From NCBI GenBank assembly GCA_018715195.1, contig DVMA01000041.1, forward strand, positions 1 through 32,207: a stretch of 32,207 bases of DNA, read 5' to 3'. Under the pieces are notes generated by a model. It did not search any database. It saw only the letters and a program-made list of their open reading frames with translations, and was not told the DNA's origin. This DNA is from Candidatus Coproplasma excrementavium. GTDB lineage: Bacteria; Bacillota; Clostridia; Christensenellales; Borkfalkiaceae. Both the position numbers and the translations under genes were made by a program. Positions within the stretch are counted from its first letter, which is position 1. The number at the start of each line of letters is the position of its first letter. Of this stretch, positions 14,885-29,636 are shown one piece after another.

Positions 14885-14909
14885 GGTATGTGAAAGGGAG
14901 TGTGCCGCG

Positions 14910-14937
14910 ATAGTTGCGGCATATGTGCCGTTCAATT
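14910..14937 (-). repeat. 28-nt hairpin repeat, copy 1
   Basis: Read on the minus strand: AATTGAACGGCACATATG followed by CCGCAACTAT. It shares ATATGCCGCAACTAT with copy 4. It lies inside the 5' leader of the ybaK-like gene. Confidence 0.75.
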
Positions 14938-14955
14938 AAAAAATTGTGGCTGAAT

Positions 14956-14972
14956 GCGGGCTTTTTGCCCGC
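14956..14972 (+). promoter_or_regulatory. Leader hairpin just before the ybaK ribosome-binding site
   Basis: GCGGGC, loop TTTTT, GCCCGC ends 5 bp before GGAGGAG. It could modulate translation; without a T run after the stem it is not a standard terminator. Confidence 0.4.
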
Positions 14973-14986
14973 TGTACGGAGGAGAT

Positions 14987-15448
14987 ATGAACAAGACGAA
15001 CGCTATGAGGATTATTGAGCGCGACGGCGCGGAATATACCGTGCATACATACGATGGCGGCGCGCTTTCCGGTGTGGCCGTTGCCGAAGAGTTGGGGGAG
15101 GATGTGTCCAGGGTGTACAAAACGCTTGTCACCACGTCGGGGCCGGGTAAATTTTTCGTGTTTGTAATTCCCGTTGCGGAGGAGCTCGACCTCAAAAAAG
15201 CTGCAAAGGCGGCGGGGGAAAAGTCTGTGGAGATGTTGCCGCAGAAACAGCTTCTGCCCGTCACCGGCTATATTCACGGCGGTTGTTCGCCCGTCGGAAT
15301 GAAGAAGTTGTTTCCCACCTTTTTCGACAGCTCTGCCGAAGGAAAGGTTATATTTGTCAGCGCGGGCAAGGTGGGCATGCAGGTTGAACTTTCCTCTGCC
15401 GAGCTTGTGCGCATAACGGGTGCATCCTTTGCGCCGCTCACAAGGTAA
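14987..15448 (+). CDS. ybaK: YbaK/EbsC family aminoacyl-tRNA deacylase
   Basis: 153 residues from the ATG at 14987 (MNKTNAMRIIERDG), chosen because GGAGGAG lies directly upstream; a longer frame from 14954 has no such site. The family removes wrongly attached amino acids from tRNA, typically Cys from Cys-tRNA(Pro), in the cytoplasm. The catalytic Lys45 is in RVYKTLV, and the substrate pocket motif GGCSPVGMKKLFPTFFD lies at ~97-113. The C-terminus (GKVIFVSAGKVGMQVELSSAELVRITGASFAPLT) is also typical. It stands alone with its own promoter and terminator and is not obviously tied to the sugar genes. Confidence 0.93.
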   Translation: MNKTNAMRIIERDGAEYTVHTYDGGALSGVAVAEELGEDVSRVYKTLVTTSGPGKFFVFVIPVAEELDLKKAAKAAGEKSVEMLPQKQLLPVTGYIHGGCSPVGMKKLFPTFFDSSAEGKVIFVSAGKVGMQVELSSAELVRITGASFAPLTR

Positions 15449-15469
15449 TTTTAGTCATTTATTTTATGC

Positions 15470-15504
15470 GCCGTGCGTTTTCTTTCGCACGGCTTTTCGC
15501 GTTT
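15470..15504 (+). terminator. Terminator of the ybaK-like gene
   Basis: GCCGTGCG (15470-15477) pairs with CGCACGGC (15486-15493) over an eight-base T-rich loop and is followed by TTTTCGCGTTTTT. Confidence 0.75.
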
Positions 15505-15510
15505 TTATTA

Positions 15511-15534
15511 AATTGCCCCGCATATATGGCCTAT
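15511..15534 (+). repeat. 28-nt hairpin repeat, copy 2
   Basis: AATTGCCCCGCATATATGGC is identical to the matching part of copy 6, but the right arm (GCAACTAT) is changed to CTAT. It lies between the ybaK terminator and the promoter of the second kinase. Confidence 0.75.
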
Positions 15535-15648
15535 TTAACGCGCTTTCTGATGTGTAAAATGCGATATTTTTTGTTTTTTTGATGTAAATGCTCCTATATT
15601 CAGGAGCGTTATTTCGTTCCTTTTTATGCTCCGTTCGTTCTGCGGCTA

Positions 15649-15676
15649 TTGACTTTTGCGGTCGGAATGGTATCAT
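15649..15676 (+). promoter_or_regulatory. Promoter of the second kinase / GH3 #2 operon
   Basis: TTGACT (15649-15654), a 16-bp spacer and TATCAT (15671-15676) with TGG before it (extended -10). The start codon chosen at 15693 leaves a leader of only about 10 nt. Confidence 0.65.
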
Positions 15677-15692
15677 TTATTCGGTAGGCGGT

Positions 15693-16886
15693 ATGGGAAA
15701 TTATTTTGTAGATTTTTTTGTTGAACTCAAATTCGGACTTTTGGGAGCGATGATGAATATTGTCGCCGCCATCCTTATTCCCGTACTGTTCGACGAACTC
15801 AATGTAAAAAAAGTCAGATCATGGCTTAAGCTGGCCCTTCATATGCTTATATGCGCCGTGCTCATGACTGTTTTCTGTGCGGTATATTATCTGTGGACTT
15901 CAAAGGGCATGCCGCAGATATGTTGCGCCGCGGTGACGGTGATTTACGCAATTTTCTTTGTGAAGTCCAATATGCCTTCCAGGCTGATGATGGCTGTTTC
16001 ATACATATCCTGTCATATGAATGTGTTTGTAATCTGCTTTTCCATAAGCGACCTGCTTAAAATTGCGGGGGCGAAGGGTGAACAGGTAATTGCCGTTCTT
16101 ATGTGCATAATAATACTCACAAGCTGCATGCTCTTTCTGCGCAACTATGCCGTAAGGAACATCAGCGAAATACCGGTAATAAGCGTAGTGCTGGTCTGCG
16201 TGGTGGGCGCGATAAACATAATTTACTGGGTTATGTCCAATGTTATGGATATAGAGCCCGCGCTGGACATAATCTTCGGCATAATAGTTGTCGTGCTTTT
16301 GCTGTTTGCCTATTACAGCGCCTATGCGCTTTCCGTGAACATCAACAAGACCCACCGCGACCGTGCCCAGGCAATGATGCGCATGGCTGATGAACGGCTG
16401 ATGCGTGCGTCTGAGGAAAATCTTGAATCGATGCGCAAACTGCGGCACGAACTAAAAAACCAGTACGCATATATGCGGCTTTTGCTCAGGGAAAAGCAAT
16501 ACGACAAGCTTGACGCCTATTTTTCGCAGTATGAAGCCAGTCTGCCCGAAACGCTGTTCTATATAGACTGCGGCAACCGCACGATAAATGCAATAATCGC
16601 CGTGGAAGAGGGCAAGGCGAAAAGCGCTGACGTAAAGCTCGATTGCAGAATAGAGGTTCCGTCCGACCTTCCCGTAAAGGATATCGACCTGTGCACGGTG
16701 ATAATGAATCTCATAAACAATGCCGTGGAGTATTGCGAAAGATATCCCGAACTTGCCGACCGCACCGTAAGTGTTGCGATAAGACTGATAAACAGTGTTC
16801 TGCATTTTGCTCTGTTTTTGACGCCGTTCGTTCCGCGGAGGGAGAAGTTGATACTTTCAGTGCGCCGTATTATCCGCGCGTATTGA
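15693..16886 (+). CDS. Second GHKL-type sensor kinase, frameshifted near its end
   Basis: 397 residues in the open frame. An upstream ATG at 15588 lies before the promoter, so MGNYFVDFF at 15693 is preferred. About six membrane helices (residues ~14-215) precede a linker and the phosphoacceptor region RKLRHELKNQY (His252), then the N box VIMNLINNAVEY (336-347). After residue ~375 the sequence turns unnatural (LTPFVPRREKLILSVRR) and stops. Adding one T to the T5 run at 16815-16819 moves into a frame that reads FFDAVRSAEGEVDTF, then LKARSADIIMSALGVVHG, and stops at 16960, 13 bp before GH3 #2. So the gene probably ended at 16960 (~422 residues) and has lost one T, or the base is a sequencing error. 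No GxG box is seen even in the restored end. No response regulator is adjacent. Confidence 0.75.
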   Translation: MGNYFVDFFVELKFGLLGAMMNIVAAILIPVLFDELNVKKVRSWLKLALHMLICAVLMTVFCAVYYLWTSKGMPQICCAAVTVIYAIFFVKSNMPSRLMMAVSYISCHMNVFVICFSISDLLKIAGAKGEQVIAVLMCIIILTSCMLFLRNYAVRNISEIPVISVVLVCVVGAINIIYWVMSNVMDIEPALDIIFGIIVVVLLLFAYYSAYALSVNINKTHRDRAQAMMRMADERLMRASEENLESMRKLRHELKNQYAYMRLLLREKQYDKLDAYFSQYEASLPETLFYIDCGNRTINAIIAVEEGKAKSADVKLDCRIEVPSDLPVKDIDLCTVIMNLINNAVEYCERYPELADRTVSVAIRLINSVLHFALFLTPFVPRREKLILSVRRIIRAY

Positions 16887-16961
16887 AAGCGCGCAGTGCC
16901 GATATTATAATGTCAGCGTTAGGTGTGGTTCACGGCCGCACCGCAGAAATCATATTATAAT

Positions 16962-16967
16962 AGGAGG
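16962..16967 (+). promoter_or_regulatory. Ribosome-binding site fixing a GTG start for GH3 #2
   Basis: AGGAGG ends 6 bp before GTG at 16974. An upstream in-frame ATG-like start would overlap the kinase gene and has no such site. Confidence 0.8.
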
Positions 16968-16973
16968 AAAAAC

Positions 16974-19900
16974 GTGAAGCAAAGAAGCAAAAAAGTCGGC
17001 GTCATAGGCATCATACTGGCGGCATTGCTCATCGCCATACTTATCGTCGTCGATGTTTTGTGTGCAACGTTCTCGGCCCTGATTACACAGGCGTTCAGGG
17101 GCGAGGCAGACTCGTCGGCTCAGGAGGCGCTTGCGGCGTCCAATGAGTTTACGGTTAAGCAGGAGGCATCGGGTCTTGTTCTTCTCAAAAATGAAAACAA
17201 CGCTCTTCCCCTCGCAAAAGGTACTAACAAAGTCAACCTGTTCGGCGCGCTCTCTGCAAAGCAGATTTACATGGGCACCGGCAGTGCGGGAGGCTTCAAC
17301 TGGAGCCCCGAGGACTTCGTAAACCTTAAGACCGCATTCTCTGAAAAGGGCATCTCTGTAAACGACGATCTGTGGAATTTCTATACCAATCTCACGGGTA
17401 ACGCCAGCGGTACGGCGGGTTCCGTTACGGACATGCAGGGTTCAACCCACTCCATAGTGGATGTTGACCTCGGTTTCAACGGCTACCAGGCTGCGCGCGA
17501 TGCGGCTAAATCTTACAGCGACACCGCAATCGTGGTTGTAGGCCGTGCGGGCGGCGAAGGCAGCGACGCCGTAATGGATATGACCCCCTACGAGCGCAAC
17601 GGTACAAAGTACAACCAGGGCGGCAATGCGGGCAAGCACTACCTTGAGCTCATGGATGTGGAACTTGACCTCATTGATTACGTAAAGGCAAACTACAAGA
17701 ACGTTATTCTGCTTGTAAACTCGCCCATGCCCATAGAACTCGGTTTCGTGGATGAAGGCGAACAGGCAAGCAACGGCACCGGCAACATAGACGCAGCCAT
17801 CTGGATGGGCCTTCCCGGCTCCACCGGCAACCGCGGTCTTGTTCAGGTTCTCACCGGCGAAGTTTCTCCCTCGGGCAGACTCCCCGATACCTGGGCATAC
17901 GAAATGGAATCTGCGCCTTCGTACTACAACTTCGGAGCGTACGCCTATGACTTCGGCAGCACCGATGTGGGCAGCTACAAGGCGACCAACTATGTTCACT
18001 ACAAGGAAGGCATATATATCGGCTACCGCTGGTATGAAACTGCCAATGCCGAGGGCGTTAAGCTCAACGATATAGGCAACTTCCAGTATAACAACTCTAC
18101 ATATCAGTATTTTGATAAAAACCAATATACTAACGGCCAGCCCAAGGGCGCTGAACTCAAAGACTTTGACTTCTCTGACTACGACAGCATAGTTCAGTAC
18201 GCCTTCGGTTCGGGCCTTACCTATGCAGATTTTGATATCGCGTTCGACGGTACGCCTTCCTACGACGCGGCTGCCAATGAATTTGTGTTCAAGGTAAAGG
18301 TCACCAACACCAGCGAAACTTACACGGCAAAGACGCCCGTTGAAATCTATGTCGAGCAGCCCTGGAACAAGGATGAAGGCATAGAAAAGGCAAAGGTTGT
18401 TCTCGCGCAGTTCGATAAGACGGACGACATAGCTCCCGGTGCAAGCCAGACGCTTGAACTCCGCATCAACCGCGATGAAATAGCTTCCTACGACTACAAG
18501 ACCGAAAAGGCATACGTGCTCTCTTCAGGTACCTACAAATTCTATGTGGATTGGGGCGAGTACGGTTCTCACTGCTGGGCAAACACTTCCGATTCTGCTG
18601 ACGTGCTTACCTGGGATTACAACCTCTCCGACAAGATAGTATTCAAGGGCAGCGAAAAGAGGGACAGCGACGTTACCGCCGCAACCAACAAGTTTGACGA
18701 TGTCAGCATCGGCGACGGCGCATATACTCCCGCAGAGGATGATATGAAGCGCGGCGAACTTGCTGCAACCTTCCCCAAGAGCTATTCCGTAAGCCTTGGC
18801 GACAACGTTCTCAATGAAGCAACCAAGGCCAGAATGCTGGACAAGACTTCCGGCGCCGTGCTTGAAGGTTACGATGCCGCAACATACAAGTACACCGGCA
18901 AATTCGCCGATGCGGACGGCCAGTACAAGGACCCCGATGACGTTACGGCACTGCCTACCGGACAGAGCTCCGACCTCACCATATACGACCTCGTAGGTAA
19001 GGAATACGACGACGAAATGTGGGACGAGCTTATTTCCAAGATGTCCTTTGCAGACCTTGAAAAGCTCGTTGGCTACTGCGGCTGGTCCAACCCCGCAATA
19101 CAGAGCATAGGCAAGAACTTCGCGGTTGATATGGACGGCTGCCACGGTCTTCACGACCTCGTTACAGGCGTGGACGCAAACTGCTTTACCACGACTCCCA
19201 TAACGGCCGCTACCTTCGACAGAGACATAGCTTATGAATTCGGTACCAAGTACTCGGCAGAATGCCTTGCGAACGGCGTAACCGGCATGTATGGCTTCTC
19301 CATGAACATGCACCGCAGCCCCTTCGGCGGACGTGCATTCGAATATTACAGTGAAGACGGTCTGCTTGCAGGTATGATAGCAACCGCGGCAACCAGCGGT
19401 CTTCAGGATAACGGCGTAGTTGTTTACTCCAAGCACTATGCAATCAACGACCAGGAAACCAACCGCAGCACCTGCCACACCTGGGCAAGCGAACAGGCCA
19501 TCCGCGAACTCTATCTTCGTCCCTTCGAGCTTGTAACCAAAAACGCTACCACGGGCAGCGCAGTGCTTAAGGGCAACACCGGTTTCATGACCGGCATGAA
19601 CTATGTGGGCACCTCTCATACAACTTCTCACTACTCGCTGGTAACGGCAGTTCCACGCGGCGAATGGGGCTTTGACGGCAGAATAGTAACCGACGCCGAG
19701 TCCTTCAACAACACGATGTCGTGCGCTATCCGCGCAGGTACGGACATGATTCTTACTCCCCGCGCAAGGACGTTCGATACCATCTCCGGCATGGATAACC
19801 ACAGCGGCTACGGTCTCGACAAGATTCAGCAGGCTGCAAAGCACCAGCTGTTCGTATTCGCAAACAGCGCAGGCATTCATGTAGACAGCGGTCTGTCCAA

Positions 19901-20003
19901 CGCGTGGGTTGCCATCCCCGTTGTACTCTCCATAGTTCTGTTTGCGGGAGCAGTTGTAATCATAATCTTTATGGTTGTCCCTGCTTTCAGAAGGAAAAAG
20001 TAA
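16974..20003 (+). CDS. Membrane-tethered GH3 glycosidase with reversed domain order (#2)
   Basis: 1009 residues from a GTG. A basic start (MKQRSKK) and long hydrophobic segment (8-37), without a convincing cleavage site, anchor the N-terminus; a second helix (~979-1003) and RRKK end the protein. Order of domains: sandwich first (EASGLVLLKNENNALPLAKG; GRAGGEGSD with Glu195 as likely acid/base), fibronectin-like (VKVTNTSETYTAKTPVEIYV), barrel last (DMDGCHGLHD, HRSPFGGRAFEYYSED, KHYAINDQETNR, and GRIVTDAES with Asp907 as likely nucleophile). Two regions differ clearly from #1: an insertion near residues 345-410 and a longer linker before the barrel. The start lies 13 bp after the restored end of the GHKL kinase, so they form an operon. 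Unlike #1 and #3 it is not followed by a 4-TM gene. Confidence 0.88.
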   Translation: MKQRSKKVGVIGIILAALLIAILIVVDVLCATFSALITQAFRGEADSSAQEALAASNEFTVKQEASGLVLLKNENNALPLAKGTNKVNLFGALSAKQIYMGTGSAGGFNWSPEDFVNLKTAFSEKGISVNDDLWNFYTNLTGNASGTAGSVTDMQGSTHSIVDVDLGFNGYQAARDAAKSYSDTAIVVVGRAGGEGSDAVMDMTPYERNGTKYNQGGNAGKHYLELMDVELDLIDYVKANYKNVILLVNSPMPIELGFVDEGEQASNGTGNIDAAIWMGLPGSTGNRGLVQVLTGEVSPSGRLPDTWAYEMESAPSYYNFGAYAYDFGSTDVGSYKATNYVHYKEGIYIGYRWYETANAEGVKLNDIGNFQYNNSTYQYFDKNQYTNGQPKGAELKDFDFSDYDSIVQYAFGSGLTYADFDIAFDGTPSYDAAANEFVFKVKVTNTSETYTAKTPVEIYVEQPWNKDEGIEKAKVVLAQFDKTDDIAPGASQTLELRINRDEIASYDYKTEKAYVLSSGTYKFYVDWGEYGSHCWANTSDSADVLTWDYNLSDKIVFKGSEKRDSDVTAATNKFDDVSIGDGAYTPAEDDMKRGELAATFPKSYSVSLGDNVLNEATKARMLDKTSGAVLEGYDAATYKYTGKFADADGQYKDPDDVTALPTGQSSDLTIYDLVGKEYDDEMWDELISKMSFADLEKLVGYCGWSNPAIQSIGKNFAVDMDGCHGLHDLVTGVDANCFTTTPITAATFDRDIAYEFGTKYSAECLANGVTGMYGFSMNMHRSPFGGRAFEYYSEDGLLAGMIATAATSGLQDNGVVVYSKHYAINDQETNRSTCHTWASEQAIRELYLRPFELVTKNATTGSAVLKGNTGFMTGMNYVGTSHTTSHYSLVTAVPRGEWGFDGRIVTDAESFNNTMSCAIRAGTDMILTPRARTFDTISGMDNHSGYGLDKIQQAAKHQLFVFANSAGIHVDSGLSNAWVAIPVVLSIVLFAGAVVIIIFMVVPAFRRKK

Positions 20004-20062
20004 CAATAGCGTACGCTGACTGAGCGCAGCGCAAATTATATCCCTTCCGTTTGGTCATAGTG

Positions 20063-20088
20063 TGCGGCACGCCGAAAGGCGTGCCGCA
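20063..20088 (+). terminator. GNRA-loop hairpin after GH3 #2
   Basis: TGCGGCACGCC (20063-20073) and GGCGTGCCGCA (20078-20088) form an 11-bp stem closed by a GAAA tetraloop. Only ATATTAG follows, so termination may be partial; the next gene has its own promoter. Confidence 0.6.
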
Positions 20089-20123
20089 TATTAGTTGTTC
20101 TGCCGCTTTTTCTGCGTTTTGGC

Positions 20124-20152
20124 TTGATTTGCGCCGCGCGTTGCGGTATACT
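20124..20152 (+). promoter_or_regulatory. Promoter of the phosphatase gene, apparently leaderless
   Basis: TTGATT (20124-20129), a 17-bp spacer and TATACT (20147-20152). The ATG starts 7 bp after the -10 box, where transcription itself should start, and no Shine-Dalgarno sequence is present. Confidence 0.6.
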
Positions 20153-20158
20153 GCTGTT

Positions 20159-20836
20159 ATGCGTTACGTCGTTTCGGATATTCACGGCGAGTACGGACTT
20201 TTCTGCCGTCTGCTCGATAAAATTAAATTCTCTGCCGCGGACGAGCTCTTTGTCTGCGGAGATATGACGGATAAGGGGCAGGAGAGCGTAAAACTGCTGC
20301 AATGTCTTTCCGCAATGCCCAATGCCAGGTGTCTGCTCGGCAATCACGAGTACGCTTTTTTAAAGTACTATCATTCGCTCTTCCGCACATGCAGAAGCGA
20401 GGAGGAGGTGCTCGCAAAATTGCGTGAATATTTTCCGCAGCCCGACGGGTTACGCCTCGAAGAGCGTGACGTGGAGTGGCTGGAAAGTCTGCCTTTTTTC
20501 ATAGAGGAAGAGGAGTTCATATGCGTGCACGCGGGCGTGCCGCTGGACGGCTCGGGCAGAATTATTCCGCCGCGCAAAGTGAGGGCGGAATATCTGATGA
20601 ACGACAGAACTTTCATGCGCGCCGAAACTGTGCCCAAGGACAGCAAGTGCGTGTTTTTCGGACATACCCCTACGCGCAACATCTGTAACCGGGATATGAT
20701 TCTGGCCTACGTGCGGGACGGGCGCGTTGGGGACAAAATACAGGATTATTATAAAATTCATCTTGATACGGGCGTGTGGATGGGCGGAGTTCTCGGCTGT
20801 TTCTGTGTGGATACATGCAATTCTGTATACGTCTGA
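20159..20836 (+). CDS. PPP-type metallophosphatase (Ser/Thr phosphatase or Ap4A hydrolase class)
   Basis: 225 residues from MRYVVSDIHGEYG; the open frame extends further upstream, but the promoter at 20124-20152 and domain start favour 20159. It carries the metal-binding motifs of the PPP/calcineurin-like superfamily: DIHG (7-10), GDMTDKG (34-40), GNHE (61-64), His124 in CVHAG and GHT (168-170). Bacterial members dephosphorylate phosphoproteins or split diadenosine tetraphosphate; the short length and DKG rather than DRG do not decide between them. It sits alone between two terminators, after GH3 #2. The product is likely cytoplasmic. Confidence 0.88.
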   Translation: MRYVVSDIHGEYGLFCRLLDKIKFSAADELFVCGDMTDKGQESVKLLQCLSAMPNARCLLGNHEYAFLKYYHSLFRTCRSEEEVLAKLREYFPQPDGLRLEERDVEWLESLPFFIEEEEFICVHAGVPLDGSGRIIPPRKVRAEYLMNDRTFMRAETVPKDSKCVFFGHTPTRNICNRDMILAYVRDGRVGDKIQDYYKIHLDTGVWMGGVLGCFCVDTCNSVYV

Positions 20837-20852
20837 AATTCTTTGAAAAATG

Positions 20853-20879
20853 CAATTGGCCCGCATATATGGCGGAAAT
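20853..20879 (+). repeat. 28-nt hairpin repeat, copy 3
   Basis: CAATTGGCCCGCATATATGG followed by CGGAAAT. It lies between the phosphatase stop codon and its terminator, thus within the 3' end of that transcript. Confidence 0.75.
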
Positions 20880-20922
20880 AAACACGGGCGGACGCAGATA
20901 ATCTGCGTCCGCCCGTGTTTTT
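20880..20922 (+). terminator. Terminator of the phosphatase gene
   Basis: A perfect inverted repeat of 20 bp per arm with a one-base centre (20880-20899 and 20901-20920; inner part GCAGAT-A-ATCTGC) ends in TTTTT. Confidence 0.85.
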
Positions 20923-20937
20923 AAATCAGACAAATAT

Positions 20938-20967
20938 AAAAGCTGCGGAAGGTATCCGCAGCTTTTT
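20938..20967 (-). terminator. Terminator of the YeiH-family gene
   Basis: AAAAGCTGCGGA (20938-20949) pairs with TCCGCAGCTTTT (20955-20966). On the minus strand it follows the exporter stop codon and ends in TTTTATATTTG. Confidence 0.75.
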
Positions 20968-20987
20968 AATTTATTATAATCTGTTTA

Positions 20988-22268
20988 TTATAAGAGTCCG
21001 AGCGCCGCCTGAACGCCGAGGCTTACGCAGGCAATTGCAACCCAGCATACAAAACCCATCAGAATGGGCTTCCAGCCCGAACGGATGAGTTTTATTACGT
21101 TGGTGTTGAGGCCTATCGCCGCCATTGCAAGCGTTATCATAAACTTGCCCACGTCTGAAAGAGTGCCGGAAACTTCCTGGCCGAGTCCCAGAACGGGGAA
21201 CAGCCACGTGTTTATGACTGCCGCCAGCAGGAAGAATATTACAAACCAGGGGAATACCTTTACAAAGTTGAACGTAAAGCCCTCTGCCTTGCCCGTCGCT
21301 GCGTTCTTTTTGGCCTTTATAAGCTGCCATATGGCAAGCGCAAGCGTTATGGGTATAATTGCAAGCGTACGCGTCAGTTTGACTATGGTGGCGTACTGAA
21401 GGGCTGTATCGTCGCCCGTCATGCTCTCCCAGCTCTGACCTGCGGCCACTACGGAGGAGGTATCGTTTATTGCCGTGCCTGCCCACATGCCGAAGCCCGT
21501 ATCGCTTATGCCTATCGCCTGACCTATCGCGGGGAAGGTGAATGCCGCAATTACGTTGAATAAAAATATGACGGAAATGGATGTGGCCACTTCGCTGTCG
21601 CGCGCGCGGATTACGGGCGCGGTCGCCGCTATTGCCGAACCGCCGCAAATGGAGGAGCCTACGCCCACAAGCGTTGCCGTATTTGCGGGAATTTTAAGCA
21701 GCTTGGACATTATGAACGATATTATAAGCGATGTCGCAATGGTGGAAATTATTATAAGTATGGAGTTGCCGCCCACTTCAAGCACGGTGATAAAATTCAT
21801 TCCGAAACCGAGGAAGACTATGCTGGTCTGCAGAATCTTTTTTGAAGTGAACTTAATGCCGCCTTCCAGCCACTTGGGACGGCGGAAAAAGGCAATTATC
21901 ATGCCTATCACGATGGCGAATACTGCGCTGCCTATAACGGGCACAAGTTTGCCTAAAAACCACGAGGGCACTGCTATTATCGCGCACAGCACAAGTCCGG
22001 GAACAACGGCTTTCAGCCATTCCCATACCTTGACGAAGAAGTTTTTGGGCGATTTTGCCTTGTTTTCTTCTGCGGGAGTGCCGGGGGCTGCATCAGCCGC
22101 GATGGAGGTTGCGGTTCCGTCTGAAGTCGCGGCGGAAGTTGCGGCAATTTCGCTCGACTCGTTGCCGCTTTTTTCGGCGGAGGCTGCGTCTGTTGCCGTA
22201 TCGGATACGTGGGCTGCAGCTTCTGTGCTGTCGGCTGTCTTTTTCTCTTCGGAATTGAATTCTTTCAT
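20988..22268 (-). CDS. YeiH/UPF0324-family membrane transporter (putative sulfate exporter)
   Basis: 426 residues. From residue ~85 it has about ten membrane helices and family motifs LVGVGSSICGGSAIAATAPVI, MWAGTAINDTSSVVAAG and LAMAAIGLNTNV. The YeiH family is often annotated as a sulfate exporter, but experimental support is thin, so the substrate is open. Odd feature: an N-terminal extension of about 75 residues made almost only of Ala, Ser, Thr, Glu and Asp (SEIAATSAATSDGTATSIAA is typical), with no signal or helix, absent from usual members of ~340-360 residues. A start further in would remove it, but AAGGAT before the ATG at 22268 and the upstream consensus promoter support the long form. 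Confidence 0.87.
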   Translation of the reverse strand: MKEFNSEEKKTADSTEAAAHVSDTATDAASAEKSGNESSEIAATSAATSDGTATSIAADAAPGTPAEENKAKSPKNFFVKVWEWLKAVVPGLVLCAIIAVPSWFLGKLVPVIGSAVFAIVIGMIIAFFRRPKWLEGGIKFTSKKILQTSIVFLGFGMNFITVLEVGGNSILIIISTIATSLIISFIMSKLLKIPANTATLVGVGSSICGGSAIAATAPVIRARDSEVATSISVIFLFNVIAAFTFPAIGQAIGISDTGFGMWAGTAINDTSSVVAAGQSWESMTGDDTALQYATIVKLTRTLAIIPITLALAIWQLIKAKKNAATGKAEGFTFNFVKVFPWFVIFFLLAAVINTWLFPVLGLGQEVSGTLSDVGKFMITLAMAAIGLNTNVIKLIRSGWKPILMGFVCWVAIACVSLGVQAALGLL

Positions 22269-22308
22269 TGATTTATCCTTGAACCGTTAATTTATTGGTT
22301 GCCGCAAG

Positions 22309-22337
22309 ATTATAACAGGCAAGGCACATTGTGTCAA
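22309..22337 (-). promoter_or_regulatory. Consensus promoter of the YeiH-family gene
   Basis: On the minus strand: TTGACA (22337-22332), 17-bp spacer and TATAAT (22314-22309), with TGT before the -10. Leader of about 35 nt. Confidence 0.85.
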
Positions 22338-22788
22338 TCGTGTGAAAATAAGTATTTGAATTACGTAATTTTTGCAAACAGAAAAAATATTTTTGCCGAC
22401 TTTTTGTTTTTCTGCGTGAATGCGGCCGCGGAGTGTATCCGAGGCCGCATTTATGCGTTAAATTTGTATATGGCGCTGATTGCATTGCGGGGAAGGGGAG
22501 GGGTACTTTTTCTGTCGGGATAAATTTCTTATGTTAAAATTTTTTGCTGTCATATGATGAACTGATATGAACATAATGCACAAATTTTATCGGACAGAAT
22601 CAGCGAGGTTGGATTTGAATGGATGAACTGGCAAAATTTTTGTAAGAAATGCTCACTTTTATGCAAATTTTGCTATTAATTTTTATTATGACATAGGTTA
22701 TAATTATATCAGATATCAAGATACAATATCCTTGCAAAACAAAGAATTCTGCTGTCTGGCTTGAATTTTTTGTAAACCTGTTCTCTGT

Positions 22789-22823
22789 AAAAAAATGCCG
22801 TCCGCTTTTATAAAGCGGGCGGC
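22789..22823 (-). terminator. Minus-strand terminator without an obvious gene
   Basis: GCCGTCCGCTTT (22797-22808) pairs with AAAGCGGGCGGC (22812-22823), with one G-T pair. On the minus strand it is followed by A and seven Ts. No minus-strand gene lies to its right, so it may end a small RNA or be a leftover. Confidence 0.55.
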
Positions 22824-22854
22824 GTATCCACGTATACAGAAGGATGCTTGAATG

Positions 22855-22882
22855 AATTGGGCCGCATATATGCCGCAACTAT
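22855..22882 (+). repeat. 28-nt hairpin repeat, copy 4
   Basis: AATTGGGCCGCATATATG followed by CCGCAACTAT. This is a full-length copy in the 5' region of the lipoprotein operon. Confidence 0.8.
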
Positions 22883-23027
22883 TACATCAGCTCGTGTATA
22901 AATTCACAGCTTCGCGGCATAATAAATACACTTCGCTAAAAAATTTTGCGGCATGCGGGTAAGAATCAGTGGACGCATTCAGCGGACTGAAAATAAATAC
23001 AATTTTCCATGCGGCTTGTCCGCACGG

Positions 23028-23035
23028 AAAGGAGG
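23028..23035 (+). promoter_or_regulatory. Ribosome-binding site fixing a GTG start for the lipoprotein
   Basis: AAAGGAGG ends 4 bp before GTG at 23040, which begins a proper lipoprotein signal. An ATG-type start at 22953 would add 29 residues that break the signal peptide. Confidence 0.8.
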
Positions 23036-23039
23036 AAAG

Positions 23040-25679
23040 GTGAAAACAAATATCAGGAAGCTGTCGGTGCTTATATCCTGCTTCGGCGCGGTTGCAGCGA
23101 TTGCAAGCCTTTCGGCGTGCAGTATGCTGATAAACGCTGTTGAAGGCAACGGTTCAGGTTCCGACGGCGGAAACACGTCCGACGGCACATACAAATTAGA
23201 TGTAGCCGCTATGGACCCCGAATGGGCGGACAAGGTTGTCGACAGTTCGCTGTGGCGTACCACGGCAAACATTGACGCCTATGCCGAAGATACTCTCGTT
23301 CTCAATGACGACGGCACCTATGCGCTCACCAAGGAGATGGGCGCGGGTCCTGACGCCGTAGGCCGTTGGAGTTCTGATGGCGGCGTAAACGACAACAACT
23401 TCAACAGGTACACCTATTACGGTACGTATACCAAGGCTGCGGACGGCGTGACGGTCACCCTCTCAGAGTGCACCAGCATTCAGGTTGAGGTGGATGTATT
23501 CAATATGTCGCTCGGCTATGACCTCGGCAACTATGAAATTGCCGATACGGGCATAATTACCGACCTTGACTTCGGCGCGGGTACTTGCGGCGGAGAAAAG
23601 GTAGTGGACCTTATGTACGGTCCCTATATAGTTGACAGCGGCAAGGGCAACTGCTCGCAGGTCGTAAAGCTTGGCAGCGGCACTTTCACGTTCAGCGAGG
23701 AGGAGGCTGAAACTCCCGACGAGGAAGTTCCCGATACAAGACCCGGCTACGCATTCACTGCGGTTGCAACGCCTCCCGCAGAAGAGGGCGGCGAGGCCTC
23801 TCAGCCCAACAGCGAGATAACCTTTACCGTATATACCGACGGCACTTATACATTTGCCTGGGCGGCGAATAAGGTGACCGACAGCGGCACATACGTCTGG
23901 GACAGACAGAAGGAGACGCTCACGCTGACCAAACCCGACGATAAGTCCACAACGCAGACCATAACTGCGAAAGACGGTAAGCTGAACTTCACCTATTATT
24001 ACAGTGCAAGCAACCAGCTCTTCCAGTCCTATGAGGGTTCGGTTGACGAGATGGAAGCCGTAATATGCGAAATGGTATATGAGATGATGCCCACGACTGA
24101 CGGCAACATATCGCTCAATCTGTACGGCGACCACACCTATACTTACACGGACGCAAAGGCGGGTGTGAGGGAGACGGGTACCTATGACTGGAACGTGGAC
24201 GAAACTCTGCTCACGCTCACCACGCCCGCAGGCAAGGAAGTTGCCTCTGCTCTGCAGGACGGCATGGCCAACGTGTTGTATGTGACATATACCTCGGGCA
24301 ATTCCTCGCAGATATTCCTCGGCTCCATTGCTGCAATGGAGAGGGATGTGCCTTCTGCAAGGGCGGTATACAAGTTCATAGGCGTAGGCGAACAGCACTC
24401 TTCCGAGTATTCGTTCGTGCTGTACAACAATATGACGTACAGCTTCAACGATGACCAGCACGGCGTAAGCGAGCAGGGTACGTGGACGTTTGTAAACGGC
24501 GTTCTCGCGCTTACATACCCCGGCACTATAACCAATAAATTGGGGTATGTAATGGACGGTTACAAGGTATCGGAGGACGGTATAGTATCGTTCACCTATT
24601 ATTATTCGGTAACCGAGATGCTCAAACAGACGTTTGAAGGCAACTTCGCCGACCTTGCGGTAGCTGTGGCAAGTTTCGGCCTTGCGGACGAAGTTTACAA
24701 ATTCGAGTGCACCAAAAACGAGGATAAGCTCTACGACTTCATTCTGTACGACAGCGGCGCTTATTGCTTTGCCGATAATCAGCACGGCATTTCGGAGTAC
24801 GGCACTTGGACATATGCAGACGGCGTGCTCACTGCAACATATCACGGCACCATAACCAACAAACTTGGCTATGTGTTCGGCGAATACGCAGTGGCGGCTG
24901 ACGGTACTATAACCTTCACATATTACTATTCTGCAACCGAACAGCTCAGCCAGCCCTATAAGGGCAATAAGGCCGAGCTTGAAATAGCGCTTGCAAAGCA
25001 CGGCTACGCTGAAGAGATATACAAGTTCACTGGCACAAAAAATAATGCCTATGACTTCATACTCTATTCAAACGGCGTTTACTGCTTTGCTGACAACCAG
25101 CACGGCGTATTCGAGTACGGTACGTGGACCTATGCGGACGGCGCGCTTGCCGTAACGTATCCCGGCACAATAGCCAATAAACTCGGCTATGTGTTCGGCG
25201 AATATGCGGTGACTGACGACACGATATCGTTTACGTATTACTATTCCGTAACCGAACAGCTCAACCAGCCATATGCGGGCAGCAAGACGGAACTTGAAAT
25301 AGCGCTTGCCAAGTATGGCTACGCCGAGCAGCTGTACAAGTTTGTCGGCCAGAGGAATACCGCCTACGACTTCATACTCTATTCAAACGGTGTTTACTGC
25401 TTTGCGGACAACCAGCACGGCGTGTATGAGTATGGCACGTGGACGTATTCAGACGGTACGCTCTCCGTAACATATCACGGCAATATAAAAAACAAATTCG
25501 GCTACGTGTTTGCTGATTATGCCGTTGCAGAGGACGGCACTATAACGTTCACATATTACTATTCCGCAACCGAACAGCTCAGCCAGCCCTATGCGGGCAG
25601 CAAGGCGGAGCTTGAAGCGGCTATAAACTCAGCGGCGGACGGCGCACAGAGCGGTGCTGCCGCAGACGGACAGGATTAA
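23040..25679 (+). CDS. Repeat-containing surface lipoprotein, first gene of the GH3 #3 operon
   Basis: 879 residues from a GTG. The signal (MKTNIRKLSVLISCFGAVAAIASLSAC) ends in lipobox LSAC with Cys27 as the lipid-bearing residue, so it sits on the outer face of the membrane. Residues ~50-230 are a beta-rich domain with pattern LNDDGTYAL...GTY. From residue 237 to the end there are six units of about 105 residues, each with a core like YDFILYSNG.YCFADNQHGV.EYGTWTYADG...TYYYS.TEQL. The first two (237-443) are strongly diverged; those from 444, 553, 661 and 766 are close to each other, the last three nearly identical. The core recalls lipocalin-like or other beta-barrel modules, but no named family was recognised. 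Its stop codon overlaps the ribosome-binding site of GH3 #3, so the two are made together; glycan binding is a reasonable guess, not shown. Confidence 0.82.
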   Translation: MKTNIRKLSVLISCFGAVAAIASLSACSMLINAVEGNGSGSDGGNTSDGTYKLDVAAMDPEWADKVVDSSLWRTTANIDAYAEDTLVLNDDGTYALTKEMGAGPDAVGRWSSDGGVNDNNFNRYTYYGTYTKAADGVTVTLSECTSIQVEVDVFNMSLGYDLGNYEIADTGIITDLDFGAGTCGGEKVVDLMYGPYIVDSGKGNCSQVVKLGSGTFTFSEEEAETPDEEVPDTRPGYAFTAVATPPAEEGGEASQPNSEITFTVYTDGTYTFAWAANKVTDSGTYVWDRQKETLTLTKPDDKSTTQTITAKDGKLNFTYYYSASNQLFQSYEGSVDEMEAVICEMVYEMMPTTDGNISLNLYGDHTYTYTDAKAGVRETGTYDWNVDETLLTLTTPAGKEVASALQDGMANVLYVTYTSGNSSQIFLGSIAAMERDVPSARAVYKFIGVGEQHSSEYSFVLYNNMTYSFNDDQHGVSEQGTWTFVNGVLALTYPGTITNKLGYVMDGYKVSEDGIVSFTYYYSVTEMLKQTFEGNFADLAVAVASFGLADEVYKFECTKNEDKLYDFILYDSGAYCFADNQHGISEYGTWTYADGVLTATYHGTITNKLGYVFGEYAVAADGTITFTYYYSATEQLSQPYKGNKAELEIALAKHGYAEEIYKFTGTKNNAYDFILYSNGVYCFADNQHGVFEYGTWTYADGALAVTYPGTIANKLGYVFGEYAVTDDTISFTYYYSVTEQLNQPYAGSKTELEIALAKYGYAEQLYKFVGQRNTAYDFILYSNGVYCFADNQHGVYEYGTWTYSDGTLSVTYHGNIKNKFGYVFADYAVAEDGTITFTYYYSATEQLSQPYAGSKAELEAAINSAADGAQSGAAADGQD
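24369..25635 (+). repeat. Tandem ~320-bp coding repeat, four close units
   Basis: Units begin at 24369, 24696, 25020 and 25335, each at a TACAAR codon pair coding YKF (lengths 327, 324 and 315 bp, plus a last unit of about 300 bp). Unit lengths stay multiples of three. The last three share long runs of identical sequence, which implies recent duplication. Confidence 0.85.
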
Positions 25680-25692
25680 GGAGGTGGGCAGC

Positions 25693-28600
25693 ATGAAACA
25701 GAATAATTTTGGTCGCATGCGCGTTGCTGGCAGAATACTCTCCATGATATTCGCCTTTACGCTTGCCGCAGGCTGTGCGGCGGGCAGCATGCTTGAAGCC
25801 AACGCCGACCAGGTAAATAACTTCCTCGGCACAAGAACTACTGCCACCAAGGGCAACGGCGATTACGAGGCTTTCACGCCCGATGAAAAGTATCTCAACA
25901 GCGATGGCTCTGCCAATACCGATGCGCTTGTAGCCGCTCATATAGATATGGGCACGCGCATCGCGGAGGAGGGCTCCGTACTTCTTAAAAACAAGGACAA
26001 TGCGGCTCTTCCCCTTGCGGGAACGGAGAACGTTACGCTTATGGGCTACCGCAGCACGGCGGCCTATGCGGTGTACGGCATGGATATAGGCTCCCCCGAA
26101 GAGGCCAGCCAGAATGTAAGTTTCAAGGATGCGCTCACCGCGGCAGGTTTCAAAGTGAATAACGTTGTCTGCTCCGCGTACGACACCGTCTCCGCTACTG
26201 AGGCCTATACCGCCAAGGATAAGAACAGACTTGCGGGCACGGGCTATTATGTGGAGTCGATAACCTCGGCAAACCGCTACAATGTGGCAGAACCTTCTAT
26301 AGATGAAATAAAAACCAGCGCGGGCGAGCAGGCGTTCAACGACAGTATCAGGCAGTATAAGGATGCGGGCATAGTCGTACTCGGCAGACCATCTTCGGAG
26401 CAGGGCGACTACTATACTGGCGATAACGGAAGGGACGCTGCGGCCTTCTCCCAGTCAAAGACGAAGAACGTTTTAAGCCTTTCCGACGGCGAGCGCGCAC
26501 TCATTGAATTCGCAAAGCAGAATTTCGATAAGGTTGTGGTTGTGCTCACTACCGCCAACCCCATGGAGCTCAGCGAACTCGAGGCCGATGATGGCGTAGA
26601 CGCCATACTCTGGGCGGGTTACCCCGGCAACTATGGTTTCTACGGCGTTGCCAACATACTTGCAGGCAAGGCCAATCCCTCGGGCAGGCTGGCAGATACG
26701 TTCGCGGCGGACACGGCTTCCACGCCCGCAATGCAGAACTACGGTCTTTACCTCTACACCAACGGCAGCAGTCTGGGCGGCTCTAACGGGCTCAACTCCA
26801 ACGACTACTATGGCGGCGCATATATCGTGCACGCGGAGGGCATTTACAGCGGATATAAGTACTACGAAACCCGCTATGAGGACACTGTGCTCAGTCAGGG
26901 CAATGCAACCTCTGGCACGGGCATAGGTGGATACAATACCACGGGCGCGTGGAACTATGCGGACGAGGTAACCTATTCGTTCGGTTACGGTCTTTCGTAT
27001 ACTACGTTCACCCAGACGATAACGGACGTTGAATTCTCCCCCGACAACAGAACGGCGACTGTCAGCGTGGCCGTAAAGAACGATGGCGACGTTGACGGCA
27101 AGAGCGTAATTCAGATATATGGCCAGAGCCCTTACACGCAGTACGACAAGGATAACGGCGTGGAAAAGGCCTCCGTACAGCTGCTTGCATACGACAAGGT
27201 GGAAGTAGCCGCGGGTGCAACCGTGAACGTGGATGTGGAGGTGGATATGCAGTATCTCGCCTCGTACGACAGCAAGGTTGCCAAATCCTATATAATGGAG
27301 CAGGCGGACGGCTACTACTTTGCACTCGGCTGCAACTCCCAGTCGGAGGGTGCACACGCCGCAATAAACAACATACTTGCCGCAAAGGCGGAGGATGGCG
27401 CGGTTATAGATACCTCCAAGATGGACGAAACGGGCAATGCGGACGCGGTCTATAAGTTCAGATGGACGGCGGCGGAGGATACCTTCGCCACATCGGAGGC
27501 GGGCGCAACCATAACCAACCAGCTGGACGATATGGATTACAACTACTATCAGAAGGACACCGTGCAGTACCTTTCGCGCAGCAACTGGCAGTCCTCCTGG
27601 CCCAAGAGCTATACTGGTCTTTCGGTGGTTACCACGACCGATATGCTCAAGTATCTCACCAACGACTTCCACACCACAACCGATACCGATACGGAAGGCA
27701 TTGTGTTCGGCGCAGAGGGTGAAACCAACTTCACCGATATGTTCCTGTCTGACTTCAACGATGCAAGGTGGAGCGGAGTGATTGATAAAATCACGTTGGA
27801 AAATGCCGTAAGATTTACTGCAAGCGGCAACAGAACTTTCCAGCAGATGGACGAAGTTTACTTCCTCAGCGGCAACTCCTACGTTGAAAACGGTTCGGTA
27901 GGCATTCAGAAGACGCTTTCCCAGCAGTCGGATATGAACGCTCCCTGGTACGTTGACCCCACCGATGAGAACGCAGGCTTCTACTGCAACTCCTTCGGCG
28001 GCGCAACGCTTATGGCCTCCACGTGGAGCAAACAGCTCATGGAGGAGATGGGCGAGCTCTGGGGCAACGACGCATTGTTTGTAAATATCCCCATGGTATG
28101 GGCTCCCAGCATAAACATGCACCGCACGCCCTACAACGGACGCAACGGCGAGTACTATTCGGAGGACGGCGTTCTCAGCGGATATACCGCGCTCAGCGTA
28201 GGTTCGGGCGCAATATCCAAGGGCCTCATAACTTCCATAAAGCACTTTGCCTTCAACGAGCAGGAGACGGCGCGCAACGGCATATCCACATATATGAATG
28301 AACAGACCGCGCGCGAGGGCGAGCTCCGCGGCTTCCAGATAGCGCTTGAAGGCTACAAGAATGCCGAAGGCAAGCGTGTATCCGTACTCGGCATAATGAC
28401 GGGTTACAACCGCGCAGGCGCAATATATGCGGGCGCGCACCAGGGACTTATGCAGGGCATACTCCGCGACGAATGGGATTTCAACGGATATGTCACCAGC
28501 GACCTTGCCCAGTCGGGCAGCACGTATATGCCCTATATAGAGAGCATACTTGCGGGCACGACAAACTTCGATACGGCTATAAATAACGACAGCACCGTAT

Positions 28601-28914
28601 GGCGCATAAGCGTTGCCGACCTCGTTGAAGAGGTTAGCGGCGATGCAGAAGTGCTCAGGGCGCTCAAAGAAGACCTTCATTATTCTCTGTGGGCATTCTC
28701 GCAGAGCAACCTCGCCAACTGGATGACCGATACCACGCGCGTGGTATGGGTATGGAACTGGTGGCGCGGCGCGTATATCGGCACGGAAATTGTCAGCGGC
28801 ATACTTATCGCCGCGGGCGTTGTGATGTATATTTACGCCGTTGCAATAGGTCCCTGGCGCGAGGATAAAAAGAATCGTCTTGCCGCGCAGGCGGAAAGGA
28901 GTGAAAAACAATGA
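25693..28914 (+). CDS. Membrane-tethered GH3 glycosidase with reversed domain order (#3)
   Basis: 1073 residues; start at the ATG at 25693, 8 bp after AAGGAGG, which overlaps the stop codon of the lipoprotein gene. Hydrophobic segment at ~11-32, then NADQVNNFLGT, which matches ESDINSYLGT of GH3 #1. Domains are in the same reversed order: sandwich (EEGSVLLKNKDNAALPLAG; GRPSSEQGD with Glu236 as likely acid/base), fibronectin-like (VKNDGDVDGKSVIQIYGQSPY), then barrel (HRTPYNGRNGEYYSED, KHFAFNEQETARNG, GYVTSDLAQSG with Asp937 as likely nucleophile). A C-terminal helix (~1029-1052) is followed by a charged tail of 20 residues. It is closer to #1 than to #2. Its stop overlaps the next gene by ATGA. 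Catalytic residues look intact; substrate unknown. Confidence 0.88.
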   Translation: MKQNNFGRMRVAGRILSMIFAFTLAAGCAAGSMLEANADQVNNFLGTRTTATKGNGDYEAFTPDEKYLNSDGSANTDALVAAHIDMGTRIAEEGSVLLKNKDNAALPLAGTENVTLMGYRSTAAYAVYGMDIGSPEEASQNVSFKDALTAAGFKVNNVVCSAYDTVSATEAYTAKDKNRLAGTGYYVESITSANRYNVAEPSIDEIKTSAGEQAFNDSIRQYKDAGIVVLGRPSSEQGDYYTGDNGRDAAAFSQSKTKNVLSLSDGERALIEFAKQNFDKVVVVLTTANPMELSELEADDGVDAILWAGYPGNYGFYGVANILAGKANPSGRLADTFAADTASTPAMQNYGLYLYTNGSSLGGSNGLNSNDYYGGAYIVHAEGIYSGYKYYETRYEDTVLSQGNATSGTGIGGYNTTGAWNYADEVTYSFGYGLSYTTFTQTITDVEFSPDNRTATVSVAVKNDGDVDGKSVIQIYGQSPYTQYDKDNGVEKASVQLLAYDKVEVAAGATVNVDVEVDMQYLASYDSKVAKSYIMEQADGYYFALGCNSQSEGAHAAINNILAAKAEDGAVIDTSKMDETGNADAVYKFRWTAAEDTFATSEAGATITNQLDDMDYNYYQKDTVQYLSRSNWQSSWPKSYTGLSVVTTTDMLKYLTNDFHTTTDTDTEGIVFGAEGETNFTDMFLSDFNDARWSGVIDKITLENAVRFTASGNRTFQQMDEVYFLSGNSYVENGSVGIQKTLSQQSDMNAPWYVDPTDENAGFYCNSFGGATLMASTWSKQLMEEMGELWGNDALFVNIPMVWAPSINMHRTPYNGRNGEYYSEDGVLSGYTALSVGSGAISKGLITSIKHFAFNEQETARNGISTYMNEQTAREGELRGFQIALEGYKNAEGKRVSVLGIMTGYNRAGAIYAGAHQGLMQGILRDEWDFNGYVTSDLAQSGSTYMPYIESILAGTTNFDTAINNDSTVWRISVADLVEEVSGDAEVLRALKEDLHYSLWAFSQSNLANWMTDTTRVVWVWNWWRGAYIGTEIVSGILIAAGVVMYIYAVAIGPWREDKKNRLAAQAERSEKQ

Positions 28915-29444
28915 AGTCAGCTTATGCCATAAAGAGAAACGGTAACGGCACGGCGCTTTTGCTCCTGCCCATAATACTTGCCGCAGCTGCGGAAATCCTT
29001 GCATTTTTCAGCTCGCGTGCAAACAGTACCTACCCCATAACCTCGCTTGATACCGTAATGTTCCTTACCGAATTTGCCGTAGGCATACTCGTTATAATCT
29101 ACGTTTTAAGCTTTATTTTAAAGGGGACGGCCTGCATGGTTGCGTTCGACGCCCTCCGCGGCGTGGCCGTTGCGCTGCTGTGCATATGCATTTACACCGT
29201 GCTTGAAGAGCGTGCCACGCTCATGGGCTATGTGTGGTTCTCCGACCTTGAAAGCGGCAACGCAAACTCTGTAAGCGCGCTCAACCTCGGCGTAGCCTCC
29301 GCGGCTCTGTATGTGGGTTCGGTAATTCTGCTTGCCGTGACGGGCGCGGTTGAGTTTATCTCTGCCAAAAAGGTAAAGCGCACGCGCGAAGTCGTGCAGG
29401 CGGAAATTGACGAGCTCAACAAGGAACTCGCTTCAATGAAGTAA
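28911..29444 (+). CDS. Small four-helix membrane protein coupled to GH3 #3
   Basis: 177 residues with four membrane helices (about 16-34, 45-70, 77-99 and 124-146) and a basic, coiled-coil-like tail (SAKKVKRTREVVQAEIDELNKELASMK). The ATG overlaps the GH3 stop codon (ATGA, 28911-28914), with GGAG about 10 bp upstream. No family was recognised. Same position, overlap and layout as the 134-residue protein after GH3 #1, though direct sequence likeness is slight apart from the last helix (FMGVDKK there, FISAKKVK here). Likely works with the tethered GH3; how is unknown. Confidence 0.8.
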   Translation: MKSAYAIKRNGNGTALLLLPIILAAAAEILAFFSSRANSTYPITSLDTVMFLTEFAVGILVIIYVLSFILKGTACMVAFDALRGVAVALLCICIYTVLEERATLMGYVWFSDLESGNANSVSALNLGVASAALYVGSVILLAVTGAVEFISAKKVKRTREVVQAEIDELNKELASMK

Positions 29445-29475
29445 TTGATGTGCGTACAGACGCACGGAAAAAAAT

Positions 29476-29509
29476 AAAAAAGCGACAGCTTCGCGCTGTC
29501 GCTTTTTTT
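29476..29509 (+). terminator. Terminator of the lipoprotein / GH3 #3 operon
   Basis: GCGACAGC (29482-29489) pairs with GCTGTCGC (29495-29502), flanked by an A run on the left and seven Ts on the right. Confidence 0.85.
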
Positions 29510-29525
29510 ATGTGGTTTTTGTGTT

Positions 29526-29551
29526 AATTGAGCCATATGTGCGGCTCAATT
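29526..29551 (-). repeat. 28-nt hairpin repeat, copy 5 (most symmetric)
   Basis: AATTGAGCC (29526-29534) and GGCTCAATT (29543-29551) form a perfect 9-bp stem around ATATGTGC. It lies 50 bp from copy 6 in the gap between two convergent genes. Confidence 0.75.
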
Positions 29552-29602
29552 GTGTGTTGCGTTCGTTTGGCTGATGTGGCGGTTTTAACGTCAAAAAATC
29601 AG

Positions 29603-29630
29603 ATAGTTGCGCCATATATGCGGGGCAATT
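29603..29630 (-). repeat. 28-nt hairpin repeat, copy 6
   Basis: Minus-strand reading AATTGCCCCGCATATATG followed by GCGCAACTAT; a full-length copy just beyond the stop codon of the MATE gene. Confidence 0.8.
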
Positions 29631-29636
29631 GTCTTT

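Follow-up and report, generated by a model that had tools for sequence, protein, structure and literature searches.

We describe a repeat family in Candidatus Coproplasma excrementavium, starting from the 32,207-nt contig DVMA01000041.1 (assembly GCA_018715195.1, positions 1 to 32,207 of the forward strand; the window below means this whole stretch). The repeat is 31 bp long, occurs throughout the genus, is kept at gene 3' ends in either orientation, and lies between flanks in which A/T-rich positions recur with a helical period. Our preferred, still tentative reading is that the copies are sites dedicated to DNA wrapping, with DNA gyrase, or more broadly a type IIA topoisomerase, as the most likely ligand. 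We obtained by direct computation the motif, its spread through the genus, its 3'-end placement, its orientation independence, its origin by substitution in genes, its frequent conservation at orthologous gaps, the symmetric helical phasing of its flanks and the regular steps that separate neighbouring copies.

The repeat family is confirmed, and it goes beyond the six copies listed for the window by a first-pass annotation, all of which are present within a few bases of where they had been placed (E≤4.1e-7 each with a sequence-only family profile); its second and sixth copies do share 20 identical bases, the 20-mer AATTGCCCCGCATATATGGC. The window contains 34 exact or near matches (at most two mismatches) to the 13-base core CSGCAYATATGSC as compared to 6.8 expected, a count equalled in 0 of 100 shuffles. 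The annotation had suggested scanning the genome for an excess over chance, and an exact pattern scan of the 1.45-Mb genome gave 51 + 76 = 127 strand matches to the core, with 0 matches for the reversed control. The stretches of this genome that we sampled (367.6 kb) hold 70 of these 127 matches in about 25% of the genome, and absolute densities in them are inflated because they were picked for holding core matches; palindromic places score on both strands, so the 70 matches correspond to 65 places. Aligning the 70 core matches (matches fewer than 40 bases from an end were excluded) gave the consensus AATTG-NN-CSGCAYATATGSC-GCAAYTA-ACG, which is informative between -7 and +22 relative to the core and has positions 7-9 (TAT) and A19 invariant in all 70 copies. 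An iterated weight matrix found 127 copies at a score of at least 16 in the 367.6 kb, and 0 in the reversed sequence.

The flanks carry a signal of their own. Among 210 isolated intergenic copies (the phasing test excludes copies with a neighbour within 182 bp), the A/T power of the flanks at 11.5 bp exceeds every one of 200 circular-shift nulls and is 45 times their mean; for 103 gene-internal copies it is 24 times the null. The best flank period is 11.3-11.4 bp, and the amplitude on each side is 0.095-0.13, in the own genome (48 copies) and in other genomes (166 copies), as compared to 0.007-0.009 at random positions in 3' gaps (n=410). Relative to the core start, A/T peaks are found at -35, -24, -13, -5, 8, 19, 27, 39, 50 and 61, with a weak one near -70; measured from the core centre they lie at about 20, 30, 42, 54 and 64 bp, fading after about 66 bp apart from one weak peak near 77 bp. 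The two flanks are mirror-symmetric about core position 7.0-7.5, within the near-invariant ATAT (the dyad falls at 7.5 in 473 of 500 bootstraps with flanks of 16-66 bp, and at 7.0 for two of the four ranges). Judged from base composition, phased A/T minor grooves over about 130 bp with a central dyad suggest DNA that is bent and wrapped. Direct neighbours are also regularly spaced, in steps of about 11.9 bp (30, 42, 54, 66, 78 and 89 bp; 55 pairs, matched by 0 of 2000 jitters).

Copies are concentrated at gene 3' ends (gene calls throughout are those of a simple in-house caller). One of the 65 distinct core places is at a contig edge, 7 are inside called genes and the other 57 are intergenic, and of the 127 weight-matrix copies 23 lie in called genes, in sequence of which 84% is coding. 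We tallied gaps of 40-700 bp in 50 stretches of six motif-rich genomes (925 kb), and repeated the tally without an upper limit. A copy is present in 29 of 62 convergent, 106 of 340 co-directional and 2 of 61 divergent gaps of 40-700 bp (Fisher p 1e-8 and 5e-7 for placement by gap class), or 3.02, 1.84 and 0.12 copies per kb, respectively; without the limit the figures are 30/66, 113/362 and 3/68, or 2.31, 1.52 and 0.14 copies per kb. This amounts to about one copy per three gene ends in the sampled stretches, which were themselves chosen for holding copies. Within co-directional gaps the copy density peaks at no more than 25 bp from the stop codon and declines farther off, and gaps with a copy are preceded by slightly longer transcription runs than gaps without one (uncorrected p 0.050 and 0.039). 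In one stretch (L010, 14660-15101), an 861-bp gap upstream of a gene resembling 6-phosphofructokinase (named by eye) is filled by seven or eight degenerate tandem copies, most of them spaced about 52 bp apart.

Sites are kept at gene 3' ends in either orientation: sense and antisense copies number 69 and 65 in gaps, and 19 and 23 in genes. We considered an orientation-guided motif of the Chi or KOPS type and rejected it, as we saw no clear link with GC skew in 57 stretches with 273 sites (r -0.16; + and - sites number 49 and 68 where the skew is positive, 32 and 33 where it is negative). Among 348 pairs of orthologous gaps, 133 have a copy in at least one member and 69 have a copy in both, counts to be read knowing that many of these stretches were fetched for holding a copy and that orthologous copies are not independent. 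Restricting the count to pairs with neither stretch drawn from the pattern scan leaves 41, of which 22 have a copy in both members (some of these stretches were chosen near BLAST matches of the element), and orientation is conserved in 51 of 61 orthologous pairs, which are likewise not independent.

Placement at 3' ends, together with the near-palindromic core, could also be expected of an element acting in RNA, such as a hairpin terminator, a stabiliser of mRNA ends or an RNase site, and an inverted pair of copies in a related genome (G015; L163, 2836-2900) does form a long palindrome. We consider this reading quite improbable. The preference for one strand that it calls for is absent (the 69:65 above), and 23 of the 42 gene-internal copies are antisense. 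The first-pass annotation had described compensating differences in the arms, and these find no support: none of the ten pairs of the proposed stem covaries above shuffled partners in 101 intergenic copies of the own genome, and mutual information in 130 copies is led by links between neighbouring bases with a few weak distant ones, 0 of the 10 stem pairs being among the strongest 40. A hairpin or RNA element was rejected on these grounds. The commonest core has a C.C mismatch at pair 1/12, and its outer arms are offset by 2 nt. The layout of an intrinsic terminator (a G+C hairpin with a T tract at once after it, in sense to the gene) was not found, so the annotation's statement that this is not a terminator family holds as far as tested. 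Nor are terminator-like hairpins, in a crude scan, clearly scarcer where a copy is present (27 of 106 co-directional ends with a copy vs 79 of 234 without; 36 of 58 convergent ends with a copy vs 34 of 66 without). The pair in L163 consists of two head-to-head copies between convergent genes, and by its looks resembles a bidirectional terminator.

The annotation had further proposed an element like the repetitive extragenic palindromic sequences (REPs), moved by an IS200-type transposase. A mobile repeat of the REP or MITE (miniature inverted-repeat transposable element) type, moved by a Y1 (IS200-like, or REP-associated tyrosine transposase, RAYT) enzyme, would be dispersed, mostly intergenic, in both orientations and here and there in tandem arrays, all of which is seen, and a small contig of the own genome (C78) carries two adjoining Y1_Tnp matches. 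We nevertheless regard it as very improbable and largely refuted. There are 69 copies scoring at least 22 inside called genes, and 84 of 87 comparisons with orthologs over such gene-internal copies are free of indels (distinct comparisons at <95% identity, over 34 of 65 distinct gene-internal copies); a wider set gives 139 of 142 alignments without an indel, many of them from near-identical or overlapping loci. Showing no indel against their orthologs, copies inside genes have thus arisen by base substitution. Y1_Tnp is found in 12 of the 41 genus genomes and is unrelated to copy number: one genome (G016) has 102 core matches and no Y1_Tnp, and two others (G019 and G034) have 0 and 2 core matches with 2 and 3 Y1_Tnp, respectively. 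There is no covarying hairpin, and the phased flanks extend outside the repeat. Looking for the marks of REP/RAYT systems, we found neither insertion of gene-internal copies, nor a stem-loop with compensatory change, nor a linked Y1 transposase. At 143-260 the window has an open reading frame (ORF) with an IS200-TnpA-like N-terminus running into a glycosidase-like tail (both by eye), which is possibly a relic or an assembly join; a PF01797 search did not report it.

The family is spread over the genus and confined to it in our searches. In the genus ("Candidatus Coproplasma" and kin), 36 further genomes have core counts between 0 and 102, and 24 genomes of other families of the order gave 20 core matches vs 45 for the control, which is chance level. 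A 24-base version was found in at least 99 stretches, of which the 80 listed are titled Candidatus Coproplasma, (uncultured) Clostridia, Clostridiales or uncultured bacterium. With a 32-position profile (E≤0.1), matches are found in 40 of 41 genus genomes, the richest having at least about 150 copies. The consensus is closely similar in five other genomes and more altered in a sixth (G004), where ten copies in four stretches (L189-L192) form a dialect with an altered core, approximately ATTGCCCCCCA.ATATGCCC..ATTAACG; the exact core mostly misses this dialect (3 matches vs 79 with the profile). Two genomes (G019 and G017) have few or no copies in the stretches tested. The 24-mer AATTGNNCSGCAYATATGSCGCAA had 0 exact matches among IMG/VR viral contigs, on which ground a phage element was rejected. 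Searches of open PubMed Central (PMC) papers for the strong gyrase site, for gyrase with REPs, repeats or convergent genes, for Topo-Seq and for Coproplasma turned up nothing describing this element, and searches of open PMC papers with the motif letters and for Christensenellales repeats gave no match.

Many copies, an origin by substitution in genes, dialects between species and absence of the 24-mer from IMG/VR would all suit a sequence of the DNA uptake type, spread by biased transformation and accumulating where it is least harmful, and ComEC is present in 35 of 41 genus genomes. We hold this to be improbable: it does not predict symmetric flanks phased at 11 bp over 130 bp or near-absence from divergent gaps, and the relation of ComEC to copy number has exceptions both ways, some of them in incomplete genomes (ComEC is present in G021 and G063, whose copies number 0 and 1, and has no match in G005, an 84% complete genome with 37 copies).

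The annotation's other suggestion, a binding site for a global regulator, comes nearest to what we find; a classical regulator of promoters does not sit well with sites at gene 3' ends that are rare in divergent gaps, and because of the phased flanks of about 130 bp we favour a DNA-wrapping protein over it. Its interpretation is in this way partly supported. A dedicated nucleoid protein or global regulator, either an Lrp-like octamer or one not yet described, might wrap about 130 bp at gene ends and serve as an insulator or chromosome organiser, and we regard this as a possibility to be taken seriously. It would account for the same phasing, symmetry and 3' placement; the regular spacing of neighbours suggests cooperative binding, the core is strongly base-specific, and the restriction to the genus with species dialects would be natural. 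With HU present in no more than 11 of the 41 genus genomes, the nucleoid of this group is unusual. The difficulty is that no candidate protein was found: HU presence does not track copy number, and Lrp/AsnC, present in 11 of the 14 genomes searched, occurs in genomes with 10, 6 and 0 copies (G017, G019 and G021) and was not found in G004 with its 79. HU and Lrp were rejected as the ligand on account of these distributions. HU (PF00216) was not found in several near-complete genus genomes either (e.g. G011, G013, G018 and G008), a pattern of patchy loss.

In the reading that we prefer, the 31-bp repeat would be the conserved centre of a protein-binding site of about 130 bp that wraps DNA in phase and is kept at gene 3' ends, and its most likely ligand would be DNA gyrase or, more broadly, a type IIA topoisomerase. 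The DNA gate would contain the conserved centre, and the A/T tracts recurring at about 11.3 bp on both sides would face the C-terminal pinwheels of GyrA with their minor grooves. Such sites would keep gyrase stationed where transcription units end and positive supercoils accumulate, most of all between convergent genes, and divergent pairs would need few of them. What we infer, then, is the wrapping of this DNA by a protein, the identity of that protein as gyrase, and a role in relieving positive supercoils. According to PMC6379681, the E. coli gyrase motif is symmetric and spans 130 bp, with a 36-bp centre, two 47-bp flanks and a 10.75-bp period, and PMC12324340 reports periodic GC flanks for the gyrases of three species. 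Our repeat likewise has a symmetric pattern of about 130 bp, with A/T peaks to about 65 bp on each side and a period of about 11.3 bp, and lies downstream of transcription units (3' ends and convergent gaps, with 3 of 68 divergent gaps). By this comparison gyrase seems the best fit on dimensions and would suit the place too, ahead of terminating RNA polymerases and between convergent genes, and right-handed wrapping would be in keeping with a period longer than 10.5. All 14 genomes searched have matches to GyrA C-terminal repeats, one of them (G010) only weaker, presumably ParC-type, ones.

Several observations weigh against gyrase. To our knowledge it is near-universal, whereas the motif is genus-restricted. 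The flank period of 11.3 bp exceeds the published 10.75, the neighbour spacings are not whole multiples of the 11.9-bp step, and neighbours 31-60 bp apart leave no room for one 130-bp gyrase each simultaneously. On the phage Mu sequence, the flank profile fails to single out the annotated gyrase cut at 17879/17880 (one site): at the possible dyads 17877.5 and 17881.5 the right arm gives r 0.03 and -0.24, with the best fit 4-8 bp away, and a symmetric profile that includes the centre gives z 2.27 (rank 395 of 36586) at 17877.5 and -1.75 at 17881.5. Set against the type IIA cut preferences -4G/+8C, -2A/+6T and -1T/+5A given in PMC10117906, the left half-site fits in the dyad-7.5 register and the right does not, a weak result. 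In E. coli, PMC6379681 reports that gyrase is attracted to downstream regions at transcript ends by supercoiling, and that this attraction is not hard-wired. One copy of the window, at 22855 in a divergent gap, breaks the 3'-end rule unless that gap holds an uncalled gene.

The window has seven copies, all scoring 25-32 bits with the family profile, whose 70 training rows include the copies at 15510, 20853, 22855 and 29602 (those at 13903, 14908 and 29523 were not in training). The annotation's statement that none is in a coding region is wrong because a seventh, at 13903-13932 (-; 29.3 bits, E=2.5e-8), lies antisense inside the gene 13339-14793 for an FGGY kinase (xylulokinase-type, Pfam); among the alignments listed its orthologs align without indel, an equally good copy occupies the same codons in G015 (scores 36.9 and 37.0), and two other relatives among those listed have partial matches there. 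The copies at 14908-14938 (-; 29.2 bits) and 15510-15540 (+; 25.5 bits) are in co-directional gaps, the former between the kinase gene and a gene for a tRNA-editing domain, and the latter 3' of that gene. Three copies, where the annotation had counted two, are in convergent gaps by the present gene calls: 20853-20881 (+; 26.8 bits) between a Metallophos gene and a Cons_hypoth698 gene, and 29523-29552 (-; 29.7 bits) and 29602-29631 (-; 31.6 bits) in the gap 29444/29637, the last adjoining the 3' end of a MatE gene. The annotation had also placed one copy, which it did not specify, before a terminator; a terminator-like hairpin of the + strand gene is seen by eye at about 29481-29509, and the copy at 29523 lies beyond it. 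The exception noted above, 22855-22882 (+; 30.7 bits), lies between two called genes, at distances of 599 bp and 199 bp, in a gap of 798 bp that is classed as divergent, and so is absent from the 40-700-bp tally and included in the one without an upper limit. A search of the window for Rfam families and tRNA found none.

Taken as a whole, the picture would be one of at least 150 (probably more) hard-wired sites, evolved by point mutation, found at roughly one gene end in three in the sampled motif-rich stretches, each wrapped over about 130 bp in a nucleosome-like fixed register by an undescribed protein or a consensus-tuned gyrase, in a lineage where HU is patchily missing; this full combination we consider rather unlikely. 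A strong phased site of about 130 bp at many gene ends would make it directly testable whether selection places sites for topoisomerases or wrapping proteins. Because scoring the motif is easy and takes nothing but sequence, genomes could be read for their topological design. Should the ligand be something other than gyrase, the repeat marks an unknown bacterial DNA-wrapping protein.

Among known systems, DNA uptake sequences (DUS) and uptake signal sequences (USS) have hundreds of copies, an origin by substitution and species dialects, all of which our repeat resembles, but its restriction to gene ends is unexpectedly strong for such a sequence, and its symmetric phased flanks of 130 bp set it further apart. 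Lrp/AsnC wraps DNA with regularly spaced neighbouring sites, as may happen here, and its known sites act at promoters; its consensus differs from that of our repeat, and the distribution of its gene does not track the repeat. The REPs of Enterobacteriaceae, including those in BIME-2 (bacterial interspersed mosaic elements), are, like our repeat, short palindrome-like sequences placed at 3' ends. They are inserted hairpins with RAYT genes, unlike our repeat with its in-gene origin by substitution, its lack of hairpin covariation and its lack of a link to Y1 transposases. Cleavage of BIME-2 by gyrase is reported in PMC6379681. The closest likeness is to the E. coli gyrase motif and the strong gyrase site (SGS) of Mu, which, according to PMC6379681, share with our repeat a symmetric footprint of about 130 bp with a short centre, periodic A/T-G/C flanks and a position downstream of transcription units. 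Our repeat, known from sequence alone, is off the annotated cut of the Mu SGS in phase and has a period of 11.3 rather than 10.75 bp, and unlike both it has a strong 31-bp consensus, at least 150 copies per genome in the richest species, and a fixed place at gene ends.

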